Origin: Candidatus Latescibacterota bacterium
GTDB lineage: Bacteria; JAAXHH01
Direction of reading: 5' to 3'
DNA: 64,000 bases
NCBI GenBank assembly: GCA_022821085.1
Contig: JAJEEG010000002.1
Location: forward strand, 310,001 to 374,000
A program made the translations under genes and the position numbers. Shown here in pieces: positions 19,579-64,000 of this stretch. The notes below the pieces were generated by a model. That model was not told the origin of the DNA. It searched no databases and worked only from the letters and a program-made list of their open reading frames with translations. Within the stretch, counting starts at the first letter, position 1, and every line of letters begins with the position of its first letter.

Positions 19579-19584
19579 GGCGGC

Positions 19585-19611
19585 AGGCAGTCCAGGCAGT
19601 CCAGGCGGTTT
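19585..19611 (+). repeat. 9-bp tandem repeat after ribB
   Basis: AGGCAGTCC at 19585-19593 and 19594-19602, then the degenerate AGGCGGTTT at 19603-19611, in the 86-bp spacer between ribB and hpnC. It shares the 9-bp period of the other arrays in this window. Confidence 0.6.
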
Positions 19612-20603: not shown

Positions 20604-21574
20604 AACGTTCCTATGAATTCTGCCGCGCGGTCGCGAAATCGAGGGCGAAGAACTTCTACTATTCCTTCCTCGTCCTGCCGGCCGAACGAAGACGGGCCAT
20701 GTGCGCGGTCTACGCCTTCATGCGCTACTGTGACGATATCGTCGACGAGGAGGCCGGAGAGACCGGAGAGGCCGGCGCGACCGGGGAAGCCGGCGCTACC
20801 GGCACCACCGGGACGGACAACGAAACCGGCTCAATCGGAACGAACGGGGAGGCCGGAAGGGCGGACCGTCAATCCCGGCTGAAGGCCTGCCGCGAGATCC
20901 TGGACAGCGCCTATGACGGGACACCCGCCGGAGACCGCGCTAATGAAGGGGCGCCGGCCGGCGGCGGCATGTTGCCGGCGTTCAGCGACACGGTGCGGAG
21001 GTTCGACATCCCCAGGGCGTATTTCGACGCCATCATCGACGGCGCGGAAATGGACCTTACCGTGACACGATACGCCACCTTCGCAGACCTTTACCAGTAC
21101 TGCTACCGCGTGGCTTCCGCCGTCGGACTGGTGTGCATACGCATCTTCGGTTACCAGGGGGAAGAAGCCGAGCGGTACGCCGAATCCTGCGGCATCGCCT
21201 TCCAGCTGACCAATATACTCCGCGACATCCGGGAAGACGCCGGGATGGGCCGCGTCTACCTGCCGCAGGAAGACCTCGACGCCTTCGGGTACCCGGAAGA
21301 GAACCTGCGAAACGGACTGTTCAACGACCAATTCCGGCGGCTGATGGGATTCCAGGTGGAACGGGCCAGGAGCTTCTACGACGAGGCGCTGCCCCTCCTT
21401 CCGCTCGTACAACCCTCGAGCCGGGCGTGCCTGGCGACTATGATGGGCATCTACCGGGCGTGTCTCGAGGAAATCCCCCGCCGCCAGTACGACGTCTATA
21501 GCCAGCGCATCGGCCTGTCCCCGTGGAAGAAGCTCTCCATCACGGCCCGGGCGCTGATCCGGAAACGCGTATGA
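20591..21574 (+). CDS. hpnD: Presqualene diphosphate synthase HpnD
   Basis: Joins two farnesyl diphosphates to presqualene diphosphate. The start at ATG 20591 overlaps the end of hpnC by 13 bp and gives 327 residues. Diagnostic motifs are YCDDIVDEE (D48, D49, D52) and NILRDIREDAGMGRVYLP. Just after the first motif an insertion at about residues 56-89 consists of Gly-X-Y triplets (GETGEAGATGEAGATGTTG and further), encoded by a 9-bp-period repeat at 20756-20857. It sits where the family has a short loop. A longer frame (from 19775) is an out-of-frame shadow of hpnC. Confidence 0.92.
   Translation: MDTLERSYEFCRAVAKSRAKNFYYSFLVLPAERRRAMCAVYAFMRYCDDIVDEEAGETGEAGATGEAGATGTTGTDNETGSIGTNGEAGRADRQSRLKACREILDSAYDGTPAGDRANEGAPAGGGMLPAFSDTVRRFDIPRAYFDAIIDGAEMDLTVTRYATFADLYQYCYRVASAVGLVCIRIFGYQGEEAERYAESCGIAFQLTNILRDIREDAGMGRVYLPQEDLDAFGYPEENLRNGLFNDQFRRLMGFQVERARSFYDEALPLLPLVQPSSRACLATMMGIYRACLEEIPRRQYDVYSQRIGLSPWKKLSITARALIRKRV
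20756..20857 (+). repeat. In-frame 9-bp-period array inside hpnD
   Basis: Degenerate units of the type RCCGGNGNN follow each other (ACCGGAGAG, GCCGGCGCG, ACCGGGGAA, GCCGGCGCT, ACCGGCACC). They encode collagen-like Gly-X-Y triplets without proline. Confidence 0.7.
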
Positions 21575-30163: not shown

Positions 30164-32638
30164 ATGGCGAAACGAAAAACCACTGCTTCAACATCAGGGC
30201 AGCGCAAAACGAGGGTGACCACCGGTCGGCCAGTAAACTCAACAGCCCGTAAACGTCAACATAGTCTCCATCCGTACGTCCAGGATGTCCTGCTGTGTCT
30301 TGTCATCGCGGTCCTTGCCGTCTTCGTGTACCGAGGCTATATCATCGAGGGCAAGGTGGACATCCGGCCCGATTTCATCGGCCAGGCCATACCCTTCGAC
30401 CGTTTCGCGCAGGATTTCAAAGAAAAATCCGACGAAACGCCGCTCTGGTACCCCCACATCTTCGGCGGCATGCCCTTCCAGGCCAGCGGCACGTATCACC
30501 ATCTGCAGTACAGTTTCGAAGCCCTGGTCAACGCCGTCCTGCCGGACCGGCTCATCAGCGCGCTGCACGGCCGTTTCTTCTTCCACCTGCTTCTCGGCGC
30601 AGTGTCCATGTTCTTCCTGGCGCGAGCCCTGTCGCTTTCCAGGCCCGCGTCTTTCATCGCGGCGACGGCCTTCGTGTTTTCCACCCACATGATGGCCACG
30701 GAACACGCCAACCGGTTCATCTGCTTCATGCACGTCCCCCTGGTCTTCCTGGCCGCTTACCGCGTCTTCGACCGCGGCCGGCCCATCGACACGCTGTTGC
30801 TCGGCGCGGCCCTGGGCTCTCAGCTGAGTTCCTTCCATCCCCAAATCGCCTTCTACACGGCCATGTTTATCGGCCTGTACGCCGTGTACGCGGTCGTGAA
30901 CGACTTACGGGATAAAACGTCCGCAGGCCACATATTCAGGAAATCCGCGCTGTTTGCCGGCGGCGTCGTGCTGGCCATTGCCGTCGCGGCCGTGCTGGTC
31001 TTTCCTATGCAGGAATACGCGCAGCATTCCGCCCGCGGCCTTTCCGTGGGAGGCAGCGACGTGAACGTGCCCTTCGCCACGAGTTGGTCGTTCCCTCCGG
31101 TTGAAATCCTGACCTTCATCATTCCTTCCTTTGCGGGTTTCGGCGGCCCCCTGTACTGGGGCGACATGCCGTTTACCGATTTCCCGAACTACCTGGGCAT
31201 CGTCGTTGTGGTCCTGGCCATGGCCGGACTGATGCTGAACAGATCGCGCATGACCCTGTTCCTGGTCATCGCGGCGGTCCTGGCCCTCCTGGTATCCTTC
31301 GGACGGCACCTGCCGCCCGTATCCTACGTCATGCTCCACTTCGTACCCTTCTTCGGCAAATTCCGCGCACCCGTCATAATCCTGGTCCTGTCGCAGTTCG
31401 CCATAGCACTTCTCGCCGGTTACGGCGTGCATGCGCTGGTCGAGCGTATGCGGGCAGGCAAAGACATGCTTGGGAGTTTCGCGAAGAGGCTGTGCGTCGT
31501 TGCCGGAGGGGTACTGCTGCTCGTCCTTGCGCTGACCGTGTTCGAATCCTCTTTCCAGTCCTTCATGACGGGCGTCTACACAGCGGCCGACACCGCGCAC
31601 GGGGCACGCAGCGCCATGGTCAACAACGCGGATTACCATGCCGGAGTCAATGACATGCGTTTCTATCTGCTCATGGGCGACCTGTGGATCATGGTCTTGT
31701 TCCTCTGTGCGTCGTCCGCATTGATCTATGCCACCCGCAAGACGAGTCCCAAGCTGTTGGCCGCGGGTTTGGGCACCCTTGTCGTCGTCGATCTTTTGCT
31801 CGTAGCCTCGCGGGTCGTGAACCCCGAGGATGATCCCGCACAGATCGAGGCCTACTATGCCGCACGGGAAACCGAAGTCGTGACGGCACTGAGAAACGAT
31901 ACCAGCTCTTATCGCGTCCTGCCGCTCTCCGAATTCTCCTCGAATGAGTACGGCTACTTCGGAATCTCCAGCATCGGCGGCTACCACGCGGCGAAACTGG
32001 GGGTCTACCAGGAACTCATGGACCAGGTGGGATTCAGCTCCTTTCCTGTGCTGAACATGCTGAACACCAGGTACCTGGTTTCCCGGCAACCTATTCAGAC
32101 CGTCGGACTTACGCCCGTTGTCGAATCTGAAGGCGGTTACCTCTACCGGAACGAGACCGCCCTGCCGAGGGCCTTCCTGGTGGACAGCGTGCGGGTCATT
32201 TCCGAGAAGGACGCCATTTTCGAAGCAATGAGGGATCCCGGGTTCCGGCCCGGCGAATATGCAATCGTTGAAAAACCCGTTGCGGAGCGGCTCGGTCCGC
32301 TGGGCGATTCGTCCGTGGAGATCACGCTTCACACGCCCCACCGCATCGAGATGTCAGTAGATGCGGCCGCGCCATGCTTGCTGGTGCTGAGCGAGATCTA
32401 CTATCCAGCCGGGTGGAGGGCCGAGATCGAAGGTTCTCCCGCGGAAATCCACAAGACGAACTACGTGCTTCGATCCGTGGTCGTACCGGAAGGTAGGCAC
32501 GAGGTGGCCATGACGTTCGAACCACTGAGCTTCACTGCAGGCCACCTGGTGAGCCGGATCGCCAGTGCGCTGGTGCTGGCCGGGTTGATCGCCGCGGGTG
32601 CGATGCGCATCAGAAAAAGCCTTAAAAACCGGACCTGA
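30164..32638 (+). CDS. YfhO-family polytopic membrane protein
   Basis: About 824 residues with a basic, Ser/Thr-rich N-terminus of about 37 residues and a dozen or more hydrophobic helices up to about residue 540, followed by a soluble domain and a last helix. This is the layout of the YfhO family (GT-C-like), involved in glycosylation of teichoic acids or other lipid-linked glycans. Typical are the exoplasmic GQAIPFDRFAQDFKEKSDET and FGGMPFQASGTYHH near the start and the later YRVLPLSEFSSNEYGYFGIS and LNMLNTRYLVSRQP. ATG 30164 is preferred to GTG 30161. It sits in the surface polysaccharide run. Confidence 0.83.
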   Translation: MAKRKTTASTSGQRKTRVTTGRPVNSTARKRQHSLHPYVQDVLLCLVIAVLAVFVYRGYIIEGKVDIRPDFIGQAIPFDRFAQDFKEKSDETPLWYPHIFGGMPFQASGTYHHLQYSFEALVNAVLPDRLISALHGRFFFHLLLGAVSMFFLARALSLSRPASFIAATAFVFSTHMMATEHANRFICFMHVPLVFLAAYRVFDRGRPIDTLLLGAALGSQLSSFHPQIAFYTAMFIGLYAVYAVVNDLRDKTSAGHIFRKSALFAGGVVLAIAVAAVLVFPMQEYAQHSARGLSVGGSDVNVPFATSWSFPPVEILTFIIPSFAGFGGPLYWGDMPFTDFPNYLGIVVVVLAMAGLMLNRSRMTLFLVIAAVLALLVSFGRHLPPVSYVMLHFVPFFGKFRAPVIILVLSQFAIALLAGYGVHALVERMRAGKDMLGSFAKRLCVVAGGVLLLVLALTVFESSFQSFMTGVYTAADTAHGARSAMVNNADYHAGVNDMRFYLLMGDLWIMVLFLCASSALIYATRKTSPKLLAAGLGTLVVVDLLLVASRVVNPEDDPAQIEAYYAARETEVVTALRNDTSSYRVLPLSEFSSNEYGYFGISSIGGYHAAKLGVYQELMDQVGFSSFPVLNMLNTRYLVSRQPIQTVGLTPVVESEGGYLYRNETALPRAFLVDSVRVISEKDAIFEAMRDPGFRPGEYAIVEKPVAERLGPLGDSSVEITLHTPHRIEMSVDAAAPCLLVLSEIYYPAGWRAEIEGSPAEIHKTNYVLRSVVVPEGRHEVAMTFEPLSFTAGHLVSRIASALVLAGLIAAGAMRIRKSLKNRT

Positions 32639-32643
32639 AATCG

Positions 32644-32674
32644 ACCGGAAACTTACCGGAAACCGACCGGAAAC
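32644..32674 (+). repeat. Three ACCGGAAAC copies at 11-bp spacing
   Basis: ACCGGAAAC occurs at 32644-32652, 32655-32663 and 32666-32674, filling the 37-bp spacer between the yfhO-type gene and the start of the next glycosyltransferase at 32676. The last copy lies where a ribosome-binding site would be; GGAAA is its only purine run. Confidence 0.65.
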
Positions 32675-32675
32675 C

Positions 32676-43382: not shown

Positions 43383-43892
43383 TCAACGCCCGTAAGAATA
43401 CTTCGATTCGCCTGATTCGTCTGATTCGCCTGGTCCGCCCGATCCGCCCGATTCGGTTGTACCGGACACACCGGATGCGGCGCCGTCGCCGCCGTTTCCT
43501 CCGTCCACGCGGTCCGCCTGGCTCGCCCGGTCCGCCTGATTCGCCCGGTCCGCCCGGTCCGCCCGGTCCGATCCGGCGGGTTCGTCCATCATGGCCGAAT
43601 TCCCGTGGAAGACCGCCCCTTCCTCGATGACGAGGGTCTTGGTGTTCAGGTCGCCGACCAAGGTGGACTTGCCGCCCAGGAGAATGTGTTGCGATACGAT
43701 AAGGTGGCTTTCCACGTATCCATGTATGACCGCGGTCTTGGATTCTATGGACGATCCGACGATCCGGCCGGTCTTGCCGACCTCGACCCCTTCGGTGGCT
43801 CTCACGTCGCCGTGCACGGTGCCGTCTACCCGGACATTGCCCTCTATGTCCATCGAGCCGTTCATTTCAGCACCTTTGGCTATAATCGTCAT
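43383..43892 (-). CDS. Bactofilin with 9-bp-repeat-encoded tail
   Basis: A cytoskeletal polymer-forming protein of 169 residues. The beta-helix core is at about 8-100 (MDIEGNVRVDGTVHGDVRAT, GRIVGSSIESKTAVIHGYVE, LVGDLNTKTLVIEEGAVFHG). The C-terminal 60 residues are low complexity: DRADRADRANQADRASQADR and a Gly/Ser/Glu-rich end, encoded by two arrays of a 9-bp unit. Bactofilins often sit beside an M23 peptidase and direct cell-wall shape; the M23 gene is directly upstream here. Confidence 0.9.
   Translation of the reverse strand: MTIIAKGAEMNGSMDIEGNVRVDGTVHGDVRATEGVEVGKTGRIVGSSIESKTAVIHGYVESHLIVSQHILLGGKSTLVGDLNTKTLVIEEGAVFHGNSAMMDEPAGSDRADRADRANQADRASQADRVDGGNGGDGAASGVSGTTESGGSGGPGESDESGESKYSYGR
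43405..43458 (+). repeat. 9-bp tandem array 1 in the bactofilin gene
   Basis: Six adjacent 9-bp units on the plus strand: GATTCGCCT, GATTCGTCT, GATTCGCCT, GGTCCGCCC, GATCCGCCC, GATTCGGTT. They encode the Gly/Ser/Glu-rich end of the bactofilin on the minus strand. Confidence 0.8.
43511..43573 (+). repeat. 9-bp tandem array 2 in the bactofilin gene
   Basis: Seven adjacent 9-bp units on the plus strand: GGTCCGCCT, GGCTCGCCC, GGTCCGCCT, GATTCGCCC, GGTCCGCCC, GGTCCGCCC, GGTCCGATC. In the bactofilin they give the DRA/NQA/SQA tripeptide repeat. Confidence 0.85.
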
Positions 43893-43944: not shown

Positions 43945-44880
43945 TCACCGTTCCGTCCGCATGCTCAACAGCAGATCGTCCCAGTGGATGACCTCGGGCA
44001 GGTAGCCGCGGGGATCCACGGGAACGTCGTCCTTCCAGACCTCGTAATGCAGATGCGGCGCCGTACTACGGCCCGTACTCCCGACCAGGGCGATAATCTG
44101 CCCTCTGCGGACCGCCTGGCCGCGGTCGACGCGAAGCCTGGCGTTGTGACCGTACCGCGTCGACATGTCATATCCGTGATCGACCTCGACCAGCCAGCCC
44201 AGGTTCTGGTCCCAGTCCGCGAACGTCACGATCCCGTCGGCCGTGGACACGACCGGCGTACTTTCGCGGGCGGCGACGTCCAGGCCGAAATGCGTCGTGA
44301 CGATCGGGTCGCCCGCGGTTTGAAACTCCCGGGTCACCCAGCCCGCCACGGGCCAAATGGACGGCACGTACCGGAACAGCGCAGCGCTTTCGCTTTCCGC
44401 GGCGGCCGCTCCGTCAAGGGAGGCCTGACCGGCCAGGTTGGCCAGACCGGCCAAGCCAACCGCGGTACCCGCCGTCAGGCCGTCATCCGCCAGGAAGGGC
44501 AGCCCGTCCCGGTGGACGGCCAGGGCGGACCAGGCCGACCGGTGGCCGGATACGTCGTCCACACGGGCCAGGTATCCGGATTCGATCCCCTCTACACCCG
44601 CCAGCCTGCGAATGGTGCTGACGGTATCCTTTAACTCCTCCAGCTCCCGGGCCAGTTCCATGGACCTGTCCTCGACCGACTGCATCTGTGCCTTCCAGGA
44701 ATAGCCGAATGTTACATCTACGACGCCCGCCGGAAGGACCAGGATCGCTATCGGCGCAAGTACGCACAGGCCAATCACCACGACGAGCGCGCCGAACAGG
44801 AACCGCGGCATGCGCATTTCGTGCGCCCGGCCCGACCGGTCGGAGACGAAAACCAATGTCATCCAGTGCATTCTGAACAT
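43945..44880 (-). CDS. M23 family metallopeptidase (cell-wall endopeptidase)
   Basis: A membrane-anchored peptidoglycan hydrolase: one N-terminal membrane helix (FLFGALVVVIGLCVLAPIAI), a coiled coil (MELARELEELKDTVSTIRRL) and the C-terminal LytM/M23 domain with zinc motifs HFGLD (H-x3-D) and HLHYEV (H-x-H). The start is unsure: GTG 44925, ATG 44880 or ATG 44871; a perfect AAGGAGGT lies between 44925 and 44880 but too far from the ATG. A Leu/Ala/Gly repeat (GLAGLANLAGQASLDG) at about 44405-44460 interrupts the linker. Gene order with bactofilin and ATP synthase suggests one operon. Confidence 0.87.
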   Translation of the reverse strand: MFRMHWMTLVFVSDRSGRAHEMRMPRFLFGALVVVIGLCVLAPIAILVLPAGVVDVTFGYSWKAQMQSVEDRSMELARELEELKDTVSTIRRLAGVEGIESGYLARVDDVSGHRSAWSALAVHRDGLPFLADDGLTAGTAVGLAGLANLAGQASLDGAAAAESESAALFRYVPSIWPVAGWVTREFQTAGDPIVTTHFGLDVAARESTPVVSTADGIVTFADWDQNLGWLVEVDHGYDMSTRYGHNARLRVDRGQAVRRGQIIALVGSTGRSTAPHLHYEVWKDDVPVDPRGYLPEVIHWDDLLLSMRTER

Positions 44881-48678: not shown

Positions 48679-49905
48679 TCAGACGATCAACATGGCGTCG
48701 CCATAACTGTAGAACCGGTATTTCTGCCGCACCGCTTCATCGTATGCGGATAGGATCAGCTCCCTCCCGGCAAAGGCACTGACCAGCAACAGTAGCGTCG
48801 ATTTCGGCAGGTGGAAATTGGTCAGCAGCGCGTCGACCAGCTTGAATTCGAAGGGAGGATAGATGAAGCACCGGGTCAGGCCTTCGTACCGGCGTGGTTC
48901 GAGTACGAATTCGGCCCTTTCGCCTGCACGGCCTGATCCGCCCGGTCCGCCTGATTCCCCGGGTCCGGACCCTCGATCGGCATTGGATCCTGCATCGCCG
49001 CCGCCCTCCGCCGCGATCGTCTCCAGGACGCGCACGGTCGTGGTCCCCACGGCGACCACGCGCCCTTCGGAGCGCCTGCCAAGGATCGTTTCCGCCTGGC
49101 GCGCTTCCACCCGGTAGTATTCCGCGTCCATCTCGTGGTCCTCCACGGCTGCTGCGCGGATCGGCTGGAACGTTCCCGGCCCGACGTGGAGCAGGACTGG
49201 CACCACGGCCGTGCCCCGCGAACGGATGCGATCCAACAAACGCGCCGTAAAGTGCAACCCGGCCGTGGGCGCGGCCACGGCGCCGTATTCCTCCGCGTAG
49301 ACCGTCTGGTAACGGTCCCGGTCCTCCGCATCCGGCGCGCGGCGTATGTAGGGCGGCAGCGGCGTGCGGCCCACTTGCTCGATGATCCGGGCCACGTCCG
49401 TGTCCCCTTCGAAACAGACGTGGCGAATCTCCTTCCCCGGATCGTCCTCCACGGTGGCGGTCAGGACGCCGCCCTCCAGTTCCAGGCGCGTCCCTTTCGC
49501 GAGTCGCGCGGACGGCTTCAGCAACGCTTCCCAACGGGCTGGCGAGGTTTCGCGGGCTGGCCCATTTTCGCGGGCTGGAGAGGATGCGCGGATTGGCGCG
49601 GTTTCGCGGGCCGGGTGGACCGGGCGGACCGGGCGGTCCGGACGGACCGGGCGGATCAGTACGACTTCGACCCTGCCTCCGGTTTCCGGCCGCACCCCAC
49701 GGAGCCTGGCGGGCATCACCCGCGTCCGGTTGAGCACCAGCGTGTCGGCCGGGGAAAGGAAGTCGACGATATCCCGGAATTTCCGATGTTCGATCTTGCC
49801 GCCGCGGCGGTGCACCACCATCAGCCTCGACGTGCCGCGGGGTTCGACGGGGTATTGGGCGATCAGGTCTTCCGGCAGGTAATAGTCGTATTCGGATAGA
49901 TTCAC
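48679..49905 (-). CDS. queA: S-adenosylmethionine:tRNA ribosyltransferase-isomerase
   Basis: Adds the epoxycyclopentane ring from SAM to preQ1 in tRNA (queuosine pathway). Family landmarks: [21 protein letters not shown] at the start, [73 protein letters not shown] and [13 protein letters not shown]-like [14 protein letters not shown] at the end. With 408 residues it is about 50-60 longer than usual, because of two low-complexity insertions (about residues 86-125 and 300-335), both encoded by 9-bp-type repeats. Stop and start overlaps tie it to ruvB upstream. Confidence 0.94.
48935..48970 (+). repeat. 9-bp array in queA (C-terminal insertion)
   Basis: Units GATCCGCCC, GGTCCGCCT, GATTCCCCG and GGTCCGGAC. 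The first two are identical to units in the bactofilin arrays. In QueA they encode a Gly/Ser/Pro linker. Confidence 0.75.
49531..49657 (+). repeat. Repeat region in queA (N-terminal insertion)
   Basis: Two kinds side by side. At 49613-49657 five 9-bp units on the plus strand (GGGTGGACC, GGGCGGACC, GGGCGGTCC, GGACGGACC, GGGCGGATC), the reverse complement of the bactofilin unit. At about 49540-49610 a TTTCGCGGGCTGG-type unit recurs three to four times. Together they encode [17 protein letters not shown] and [15 protein letters not shown]. Confidence 0.75.
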
Positions 49906-62331: not shown

Positions 62332-63498
62332 TCATGCGGGCGCCCGGATTCCGGCCAGGGTCTTCGCGTACTCGAAGGGACGGGCTACCGACTGGCGACG
62401 TATCGCGCCGTACCGTTGGCGGACCAGGGCAGAGACGTCCTCGCTGCGGGCGATGCGCCTGAACACGTTCCGGCCGGGACGGGCGTTGATCTCGATGATC
62501 CACGGCAGTCCGGCCGTGTCCGGCACGATGTCGAGACCCACCTCTCCGATGGGTCCGAGTTCCGCGTCCAGCAGGCGGCAGGCCGCGTAAGACGCCTCCT
62601 CGGCACGGCGCAGGATTTCCTTCCTGACCGGCCGGCCGTACAGCCCGTCGAGGACGGTTTCGGCCTCCTCCGAACGGGCGCCGTTACTCAGGTTGGTCGT
62701 GGGGCCGCTGGTCTGGCCGACGCGGGCCGCCAGGCCGGTAAGGTCCCACCGGGCCTGCCCGTTCTTCTGCATGAGCAGCCGAAGGTCGAACCTCGGAAAA
62801 CGCCTTTTGTCTGCGGGTTCGGCCGATATCCCCTGTTGCACCAGGCAACCCTTGGGTTCCCCGCGCGCTCCGGCGGTCAGCGCCATGATCCGGTCCATGG
62901 CCGGTCCGGCGCCCCGTGTCTCATAGGTTGCGTCCAGCGTCCTGATGACCTGGCGTCCCTCCGCGGATCGGACGATTTCCATGACGCCCCTTCCCAGAGA
63001 GCCGACCCTGGGCTTGACGTATACGTGATCGTACCTCGCCAGGAAAGCCCGCAGCGTGTGCGCATCGAGGATCTCGGTATGGGGTAAGACGAGGCCGCCG
63101 CCCACCAGGTGCCGGTGCATCTCCAACTTGTCCACCGCCAGCCGGACGAAGGACACGGGATTCACGAAGGGTAAGCCCGCCCGATCGAAGAAGTCCCGCG
63201 CGCGGTCCGCGGCGGGAGATCCGGCGGGATCCAGCACGGGTGCCCGGTCGTAGATGACCGCCGGCCAGGGTTCGCGGCCGCATTCGACCCACCTTCCGTT
63301 CACGACCGTGGCCGGAGACACCGTCCCTTGTGCGGCATCCACGTCCGCCGCGTCGAACACGACCGCGCGCAGGTCCAGCGCCGCCGCCGCTTCGCAACAC
63401 TCCTCGAAATATCCAGTGGGCGGACCGAAGGGCCGTCCTTGTCCATCGGGCGGCCGGCGGGTCAGTATGCCCACGGTGAACATGGCCATCGGCTTCAT
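62332..63498 (-). CDS. YheC/YheD-like ATP-grasp protein
   Basis: A 388-residue protein starting at ATG 63498, which overlaps the PfkB stop (ATGA). The N-terminal part (MFTVGILTRRP, then TVVNGRWVECGREPWPAVIYDR) and the ATP-grasp core (NPVSFVRLAVDKLEMHRHL, YVKPRVGSLGRGVMEI, FPRFDLRLLMQKNG, EVGLDIVPDTAGLPWIIEIN) match the YheC/YheD family known from Bacillus spore coats. No sporulation gene is seen here, so the role must be different, probably ligation of amino acids or a similar carboxylate-amine condensation. Confidence 0.8.
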   Translation of the reverse strand: MKPMAMFTVGILTRRPPDGQGRPFGPPTGYFEECCEAAAALDLRAVVFDAADVDAAQGTVSPATVVNGRWVECGREPWPAVIYDRAPVLDPAGSPAADRARDFFDRAGLPFVNPVSFVRLAVDKLEMHRHLVGGGLVLPHTEILDAHTLRAFLARYDHVYVKPRVGSLGRGVMEIVRSAEGRQVIRTLDATYETRGAGPAMDRIMALTAGARGEPKGCLVQQGISAEPADKRRFPRFDLRLLMQKNGQARWDLTGLAARVGQTSGPTTNLSNGARSEEAETVLDGLYGRPVRKEILRRAEEASYAACRLLDAELGPIGEVGLDIVPDTAGLPWIIEINARPGRNVFRRIARSEDVSALVRQRYGAIRRQSVARPFEYAKTLAGIRAPA

Positions 63499-64000
63499 GA
63501 TCTTGCGGGCCGGGTGGACGGCGCGGTGCCGGTGGACGACGCCGGCCGGGTGGACGGTGAGGAGCCGGTGGACGGCGCGGACCTGGCGGTACGGACCGGA
63601 CGGGCCATCTGCTTCACTTCCTCCAGCGTCGACCAGGTCATGTCGCCCCGTTCCGACAGGCACAGTGCGGACAGCGCGGTGCCGTAGGACATCCCGGTAG
63701 ACAGGTCATCGCGCAGCAGGCCGTACAGCAGGCCGGCGTCGAAGGCGTCGCCGGCGCCGAGCCGGTCGACCGGTTCCACCACGTAGGGATCCGTGTAGAG
63801 AAGGCCGGTCTCCGAGGACCAGCCCACGGCCCCGCCCTCGGACAGCGTCAGCACGACGATCTCGTTCCCGAACCGCCCGTGGAGGGCTTCGACGGTTTCC
63901 TCCGGCGCTCCGTCCAGACCGAAGATCAGCGCCGCGTCATCGGACGTCGATACGAGTATGTCGACCTGGTCCAGCAGCGATTCCAGGACGATTCGGGCCT
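63495..64000 (-). CDS. PfkB-family carbohydrate kinase (5'-truncated, C-terminal part)
   Basis: The frame enters from beyond the window. Visible: VDILVSTSDDAALIFGLDG, EIVVLTLSEGGAVGW and the PfkB signature 2 with the catalytic aspartate, DRLGAGDAFDAGLLYGLL. This resembles 2-keto-3-deoxygluconate kinase-like or ribokinase-like enzymes. After the domain ends (MTWSTLEEVKQ) a 35-residue tail (RPVRTARSAPSTGSSPSTRP and more) is made of an 18-bp repeat. Its stop overlaps the next gene's start. Confidence 0.87.
   Translation of the reverse strand, partial: ARIVLESLLDQVDILVSTSDDAALIFGLDGAPEETVEALHGRFGNEIVVLTLSEGGAVGWSSETGLLYTDPYVVEPVDRLGAGDAFDAGLLYGLLRDDLSTGMSYGTALSALCLSERGDMTWSTLEEVKQMARPVRTARSAPSTGSSPSTRPASSTGTAPSTRPARS
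63510..63581 (+). repeat. 18-bp tandem array at the 3' end of the PfkB gene
   Basis: Four copies with GGTGGAC at exactly 18-bp spacing (63513, 63531, 63549, 63567). They encode hexapeptides of the type APSTGS/SPSTRP at the C-terminus of the kinase. Confidence 0.8.

Follow-up and report, generated by a model that had tools for sequence, protein, structure and literature searches.

A genus-wide family of 9-bp tandem arrays, mostly in frame within unrelated genes of Latescibacterota

Repeat families can occupy bacterial protein genes, as do the Rickettsia palindromic elements, which lie in frame within protein genes and are longer and dispersed. Short tandemly repeated repetitive (STRR) sequences are lineage-specific short words that form small tandem arrays in many places. 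Those of filamentous cyanobacteria usually have 7-bp units, were described from a promoter and an intergenic region, and are of unknown function (PMC2670836). In a minority of bacteria, families of short-repeat satellites with related units occur across the genome, for which transposition has been suggested but not shown; examples are the 6-8 nt repeats of Burkholderia, those of Chloroflexus aurantiacus, and an octamer of Mesorhizobium (PMC6749651).

Here we analyzed a window of 64,000 nucleotides (G000:C2:310001-374000) from a genome of 3.75 Mb in seven contigs, in which arrays of the 9-bp unit GGWCCGCCY occur. As in bacterial satellite families, a short tandem unit is scattered, in related form, over many places in the genome and confined to a restricted lineage, which in those families comprises one or a few related species. 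The arrays differ from such families in their 9-bp unit, in lying mostly in ordinary genes, in being read in three phases, and in occurring in all 12 species of the genus. With STRRs they share lineage-specific short words in small arrays at many places, but they are 9-bp and mostly genic (19 of 24 sites) rather than 7-bp and mainly intergenic; the 8-bp arrays of AATCACCA found in a sister genome (G001) look closer to STRRs. The genic arrays also resemble coding VNTRs or intragenic minisatellites: they are head-to-tail, keep an open frame, have periods that are multiples of three, vary in copy number between relatives, and are tolerated in linkers. Coding VNTRs, however, usually have their own unit at each locus, whereas GGWCCGCCY is common to many unrelated loci of this genome. 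The likeness to the Rickettsia elements is that of a repeat family inside unrelated protein genes, but the present repeats are 9-bp tandem arrays instead of longer dispersed palindromes, and no such element was seen here. We found no description of such repeats in Latescibacteria in the literature searched, and the mainly genic, three-phase, and genus-wide occurrence distinguishes them from the known satellites and STRRs.

QueA and bactofilin are lengthened in frame by a repeat that is constant in its DNA word, not in its peptide. The twelve species, with shared sites and array-free outgroups, form a natural series for asking whether such a word spreads between loci or only expands from seeds. 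The repeat also explains the low-complexity, collagen-like GGP inserts of the genus, which annotation could mistake for functional domains.

Arrays of the window

The original prediction gave the bactofilin gene two 9-bp arrays, of six and seven copies, and placed identical 9-mers in queA. The coordinates and units of the bactofilin arrays and the positions of the queA arrays were confirmed (Table 1), with the unit refined from GRTYCGCCY to GGWCCGCCY (RGGCGGWCC on the coding strand), and both bactofilin arrays sit in the tail of the protein, beyond its PF04519 match. The 9-mers GGTCCGCCT and GATCCGCCC are indeed found in both genes, and the exact unit is present in both bactofilin arrays and both queA arrays. 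The QueA loops were placed by alignment to PDB structures; an AlphaFold model with a mean pLDDT of 49 was not used for placement. The 18/36-bp SPARE/GPARE repeat that adjoins the 9-bp array of loop 1 (window 49535-49611) is itself length-variable among species.

Table 1 Repeat features of the window and the genes that carry them, with identity at a lag of 9 bp.
Feature	Position in window	Strand	Lag-9 identity	Unit, phase or remark
Bactofilin gene	43383..43892	-		Pfam PF04519 at residues 2-99, E 2.3e-20
Bactofilin C-terminal array 1	43511..43573	-	0.76	Seven degenerate 9-bp units; coding phase SDR/ADR/ANQ/ASQ
Bactofilin C-terminal array 2	43405..43458	-	0.78	Six units; coding phase GGS/GGP/GES/DES
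queA (SAM:tRNA ribosyltransferase-isomerase)	48679..49905	-		Two insert loops, both lacking in solved QueA homologues
QueA loop 1 array	49606..49657	-	0.81	Unit read VRP/DRP on coding strand; abuts conserved VEVVLxR codons
QueA loop 1, remainder	49535..49606	-		18/36-bp repeat, SPARE/GPARE peptides; different word
QueA loop 2 array	48929..48970	-	0.58	GES/GGP/GGS phase
Second squalene/phytoene-synthase-type gene	20749..20857	+		9/18-bp repeat GETGEAGATGEAG; period alike, word different
M23 peptidase gene	44405..44460	-		Weak 9/18-bp repeat (LAGLANLAGQA); word different
Intergenic 9-bp array after ribB	19584..19611	.		Unit CAGGCAGTC, 2 mismatches from GGWCCGCCY
Array word as single unit				GGTCCGCCC

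Looser arrays elsewhere in the window had been taken as kin of this word. What holds of that claim is the period, which is about 9 or 18 bp in the M23 gene and in the squalene-synthase-type gene (first called hpnD) and a true 9 bp after ribB; the word itself is absent from all three, and in the two genic repeats no 9-mer comes within fewer than 2 mismatches of the unit. The 9-bp period proposed between cysE and trxB was not recovered, the identity there being 0.47 at lag 9 and 0.48 at lag 8. Two other repeats were seen in the window: a 36-bp repeat with an 88% match at 63505-63580, close to where the gene at 62332-63663 is proposed to start and possibly upstream of its true start, and an 11/22-bp tandem repeat (AAACCGACCGG) at 32626-32675, where two genes meet.

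Excess, sharing, and genus restriction of the word

Array statistics were obtained from a 464-kb sample, made up of the window and 20 evenly spaced blocks, whereas pattern searches covered the whole genome; for comparison, 400 kb were sampled from another species and 397 kb from two sister genera. Counting as a lag-9 region any stretch in which 16 or more of 18 positions match at that lag, we observed 17 regions, against 0.1 in codon-shuffled sequences, the null proposed at the outset, and 4.9 in synonymously shuffled ones. This places the greater part of the lag-9 signal at the DNA level, with a protein-level part in addition. The neighbouring lags 8 and 10 gave 2 regions and 1 region in the same sample. 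Genome-wide, exact or near-exact double units occupy 24 sites, and 52 exact double units were counted.

The arrays share their word across loci. Of the 17 arrays in the sample, 10 differ from GGTCCGCCY by no more than 1 mismatch, compared with 1.6% of random genomic 9-mers, 5.3% of GC-rich ones, and 3.9% under a codon-pair null in which tripeptides are drawn from the array residues and encoded with the genome's own codon-pair use. Because the word had been defined from the window, we repeated one test with the window arrays excluded, and 8 of 13 were still within 1 mismatch of the unit (p ~6e-9). When array units of this genome were compared pair by pair, 24 of 136 pairs differed by at most 1 mismatch, against a mean of 2.9 in a GC-matched null. 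The suspicion that shared words exceed what independent slippage gives is thus upheld statistically. GGP arrays collected by a protein search, blind to DNA words, likewise have GGCGGWCCR as the unit on the strand read as GGP. A reversed-pattern control was set aside, as reversing the unit gives a rotated form of the GGWCCGCCY word and the control is not independent.

Outside arrays, the single-copy word occurs at expectation (observed/expected 0.66-1.13 in this genome and 1.06-1.31 in its congener G007), so the arrays are the only enriched form. A strong word bias had been one of the explanations offered; if it is taken to mean that the word is common in the genome, it is rejected on this ground. 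The same observation rules out a genome signal word such as an uptake sequence or a Chi-like site.

Counts in related genomes, another check proposed for this DNA, confine the arrays to the genus. The genomes compared represent twelve species of the genus, its two sister genera, and another two genera from the order. Exact doubles number 52 in the window's genome, G000, and between 4 and 44 in each of its eleven congeners, but 1 and 0 in the sister genera and 0 in the two further genera; no lag-9 arrays occur in the 397 kb sampled from the sister genera. Arrays of any kind (TRF score of at least 45) reach 216 per Mb in G000 and 328 per Mb in G007, compared with 40 per Mb in the sister genome G013 and 161 per Mb, mostly of other periods, in the sister genome G001, densities that are not directly comparable with those of the satellite survey (PMC6749651), whose detection thresholds differ. 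G007 has more arrays overall, but only 2 of 13 are near the unit, indicating a weak word preference. The private 8-bp word of G001, AATCACCA, forms 132 exact doubles and does not occur in any of the 15 other genomes searched from the phylum. Its arrays are spread genome-wide (e.g. L146:7533-7585 and L151:30-54), and 7-bp relatives (ACCAATC) are present too.

Reading frame and variation between species

Among 19 genic arrays scored, 18 carry GGCGGACC on the coding strand and one is reversed; the array of QueA loop 1, outside this set, is a second reversed one. The 18 are read in three phases, 8 as GGP, 7 as ADQ/ADR, and 3 as GRT/RRT. Single copies divide 45 to 31 between the strands, compared with 18 to 1 for the arrays (Fisher p 0.003, or 0.009 with QueA loop 1 included). 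This strand bias could reflect a process linked to transcription, or selection acting against what the opposite strand would encode (GPP, VRP/VRL, SAW).

The period is not a multiple of three in 55 of 98 arrays between genes but in only 7 of 114 within them (p 3e-16, two species, G000 and G007), with genes called by codon score, so that some intergenic labels may be wrong. Since all periods occur between genes and multiples of three within them, the tendency to make repeats is general and genes keep the in-frame ones. In the same intergenic samples, multiples of nine, especially 18, are somewhat favoured, at 20 of 98 arrays where one in nine would be expected (p 0.006), and 20-bp periods recur.

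The original prediction held that expansion keeps the frame in tolerated loops, and that orthologues should be aligned for copy-number variation. Such variation was found between species in QueA, bactofilin, and a third protein (the L057 gene, with nine perfect units in this genome), whose inserts vary in length between species that are ~70-88% identical elsewhere; copy number and unit differ while the flanks stay alignable. The bactofilin tail has a different length and different units in every species compared. Both QueA loops are short or absent in the sister genera and different in nearly every member of the genus; QueA relatives with 73-84% identity belong to MAGs that carry the labels Gemmatimonadetes and Candidatus Latescibacterota. 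The L057 gene (L057:1393-2715) contains a second expansion besides its 9-bp array, with peptide GVGRADGRADDRADVRADDRTDDR and a 12-bp, four-codon period, which is nearly absent in most relatives, so that this gene has two expansion sites.

Array sites are partly shared among species. In G009, 3 of 13 sites are at the same place as an array of G000, 3 are nearby at a different spot, and the remaining 7 strictly match none of the compared sites; further shared sites exist in other species. This mixture indicates shared hot spots with turnover.

QueA loop 1 retains the starting point of an array. In relatives, the codons of the VEVVLxR motif contain the seed CTGGTCCGC. In G011 and G012, which have no array in this loop, the Leu-Val-Arg codons are CTGGTCCGC, exactly one unit, and the arrays of G006 and G000 begin at these same conserved codons. 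The loop is the clearest single case of nucleation at a pre-existing local copy of the unit; it fits local slippage and also microhomology-primed copying.

Origin of the arrays

The arrays probably originated in a burst of slippage expansion at the level of the genus, with a recurring word and with selection on the reading frame as the filter. The genus would form short tandem repeats unusually actively, by local duplication and slippage in replication or repair; slippage as the motor is what we infer, and the excess of arrays, their confinement to the genus, their differences between species, the filtering by frame, and one local seed are seen in the data themselves. Between genes, repeats of any period survive; within genes, almost only multiples of three do so, where loops, linkers, and tails can accommodate additional residues. 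The 9-bp arrays are the smallest common genic class, and in the species of the window the GC-rich GGWCCGCCY is their commonest unit. Single copies of the word, present at ordinary frequency, would serve as seeds and then undergo expansion, contraction, and local homogenisation, and the phase of the seed would set the peptide added (GGP, ADQ/ADR, or GRT). Purely local slippage at random seeds would not predict one word at so many loci, as the all-pairs comparison shows, and a mutational or selective preference for GGWCCGCCY would probably have to be added. The weak preference in G007, which is richer in arrays, also speaks against this reading. Hairpin-driven slippage was considered and rejected, as most other orders of the unit's letters would form hairpins more readily and more stably. 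Loss of mismatch repair seems not to apply either, as putative MutS1 and MutL genes with open frames are found in the genus.

Spread of the word between loci would account for unit sharing far beyond the codon-pair null, with existing arrays templating microhomology-primed switching or ectopic conversion and seeds capturing distant units. It also suits a word that is private to the genus and has fared unequally from species to species, with 4 to 52 exact doubles, a sister genome with a private word of its own, and the QueA loop 1 arrays of G006 and G000, in which the seed is the CCT form and the added units the CCC form. A single T-to-C change explains the last case without a donor, however, no homology beyond the units is seen between the array loci of one genome, and the arrays look locally homogenised, e.g. 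where a given site has an ADQ-type tail in one species and an ADR-type tail in another. We regard such copying as unlikely. Its most general form, in which short tandem words are self-propagating, any seed that matches can receive new units templated by existing arrays, and genus-private words such as GGWCCGCCY and AATCACCA invade genes and intergenic DNA without a transposase, is likewise doubtful.

Selection at the protein level, favouring flexible Gly/Pro/Ala/Asp/Gln/Arg linkers whose DNA looks alike through codon and codon-pair preferences, is quite improbable as the whole explanation. Codon context does favour GGCGGWCCR for GGP (25% of GGP outside arrays), ADQ or ADR in preferred codons yields the same word, and synonymous shuffling retains 4.9 of the 17 lag-9 regions. 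Yet one DNA word encodes unrelated tripeptides in three phases, the codon-pair null falls far short of the 10 of 17 arrays observed, intergenic arrays exist, and CCA, which outside arrays encodes only 5% of the prolines that precede a glycine, is common within them. Codon context thus accounts for part of the GGCGGWCCR preference, not for the frequent CCA, and pure protein-level convergence is disfavoured by the codon-pair null and the three phases.

That the arrays are kept for their own sake, as a protein-binding or chromosome-organising site, would agree with one word in one genus at dispersed sites and with the strand bias (18 to 1 against 45 to 31), but is very unlikely given single copies at expectation, copy numbers that differ widely among species, and site turnover. 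An assembly or binning artefact is hardly credible: tandem repeats are described as a cause of assembly errors (PMC6868369), but the arrays occur in 12 separately assembled species, with open frames and at orthologous sites common to species.
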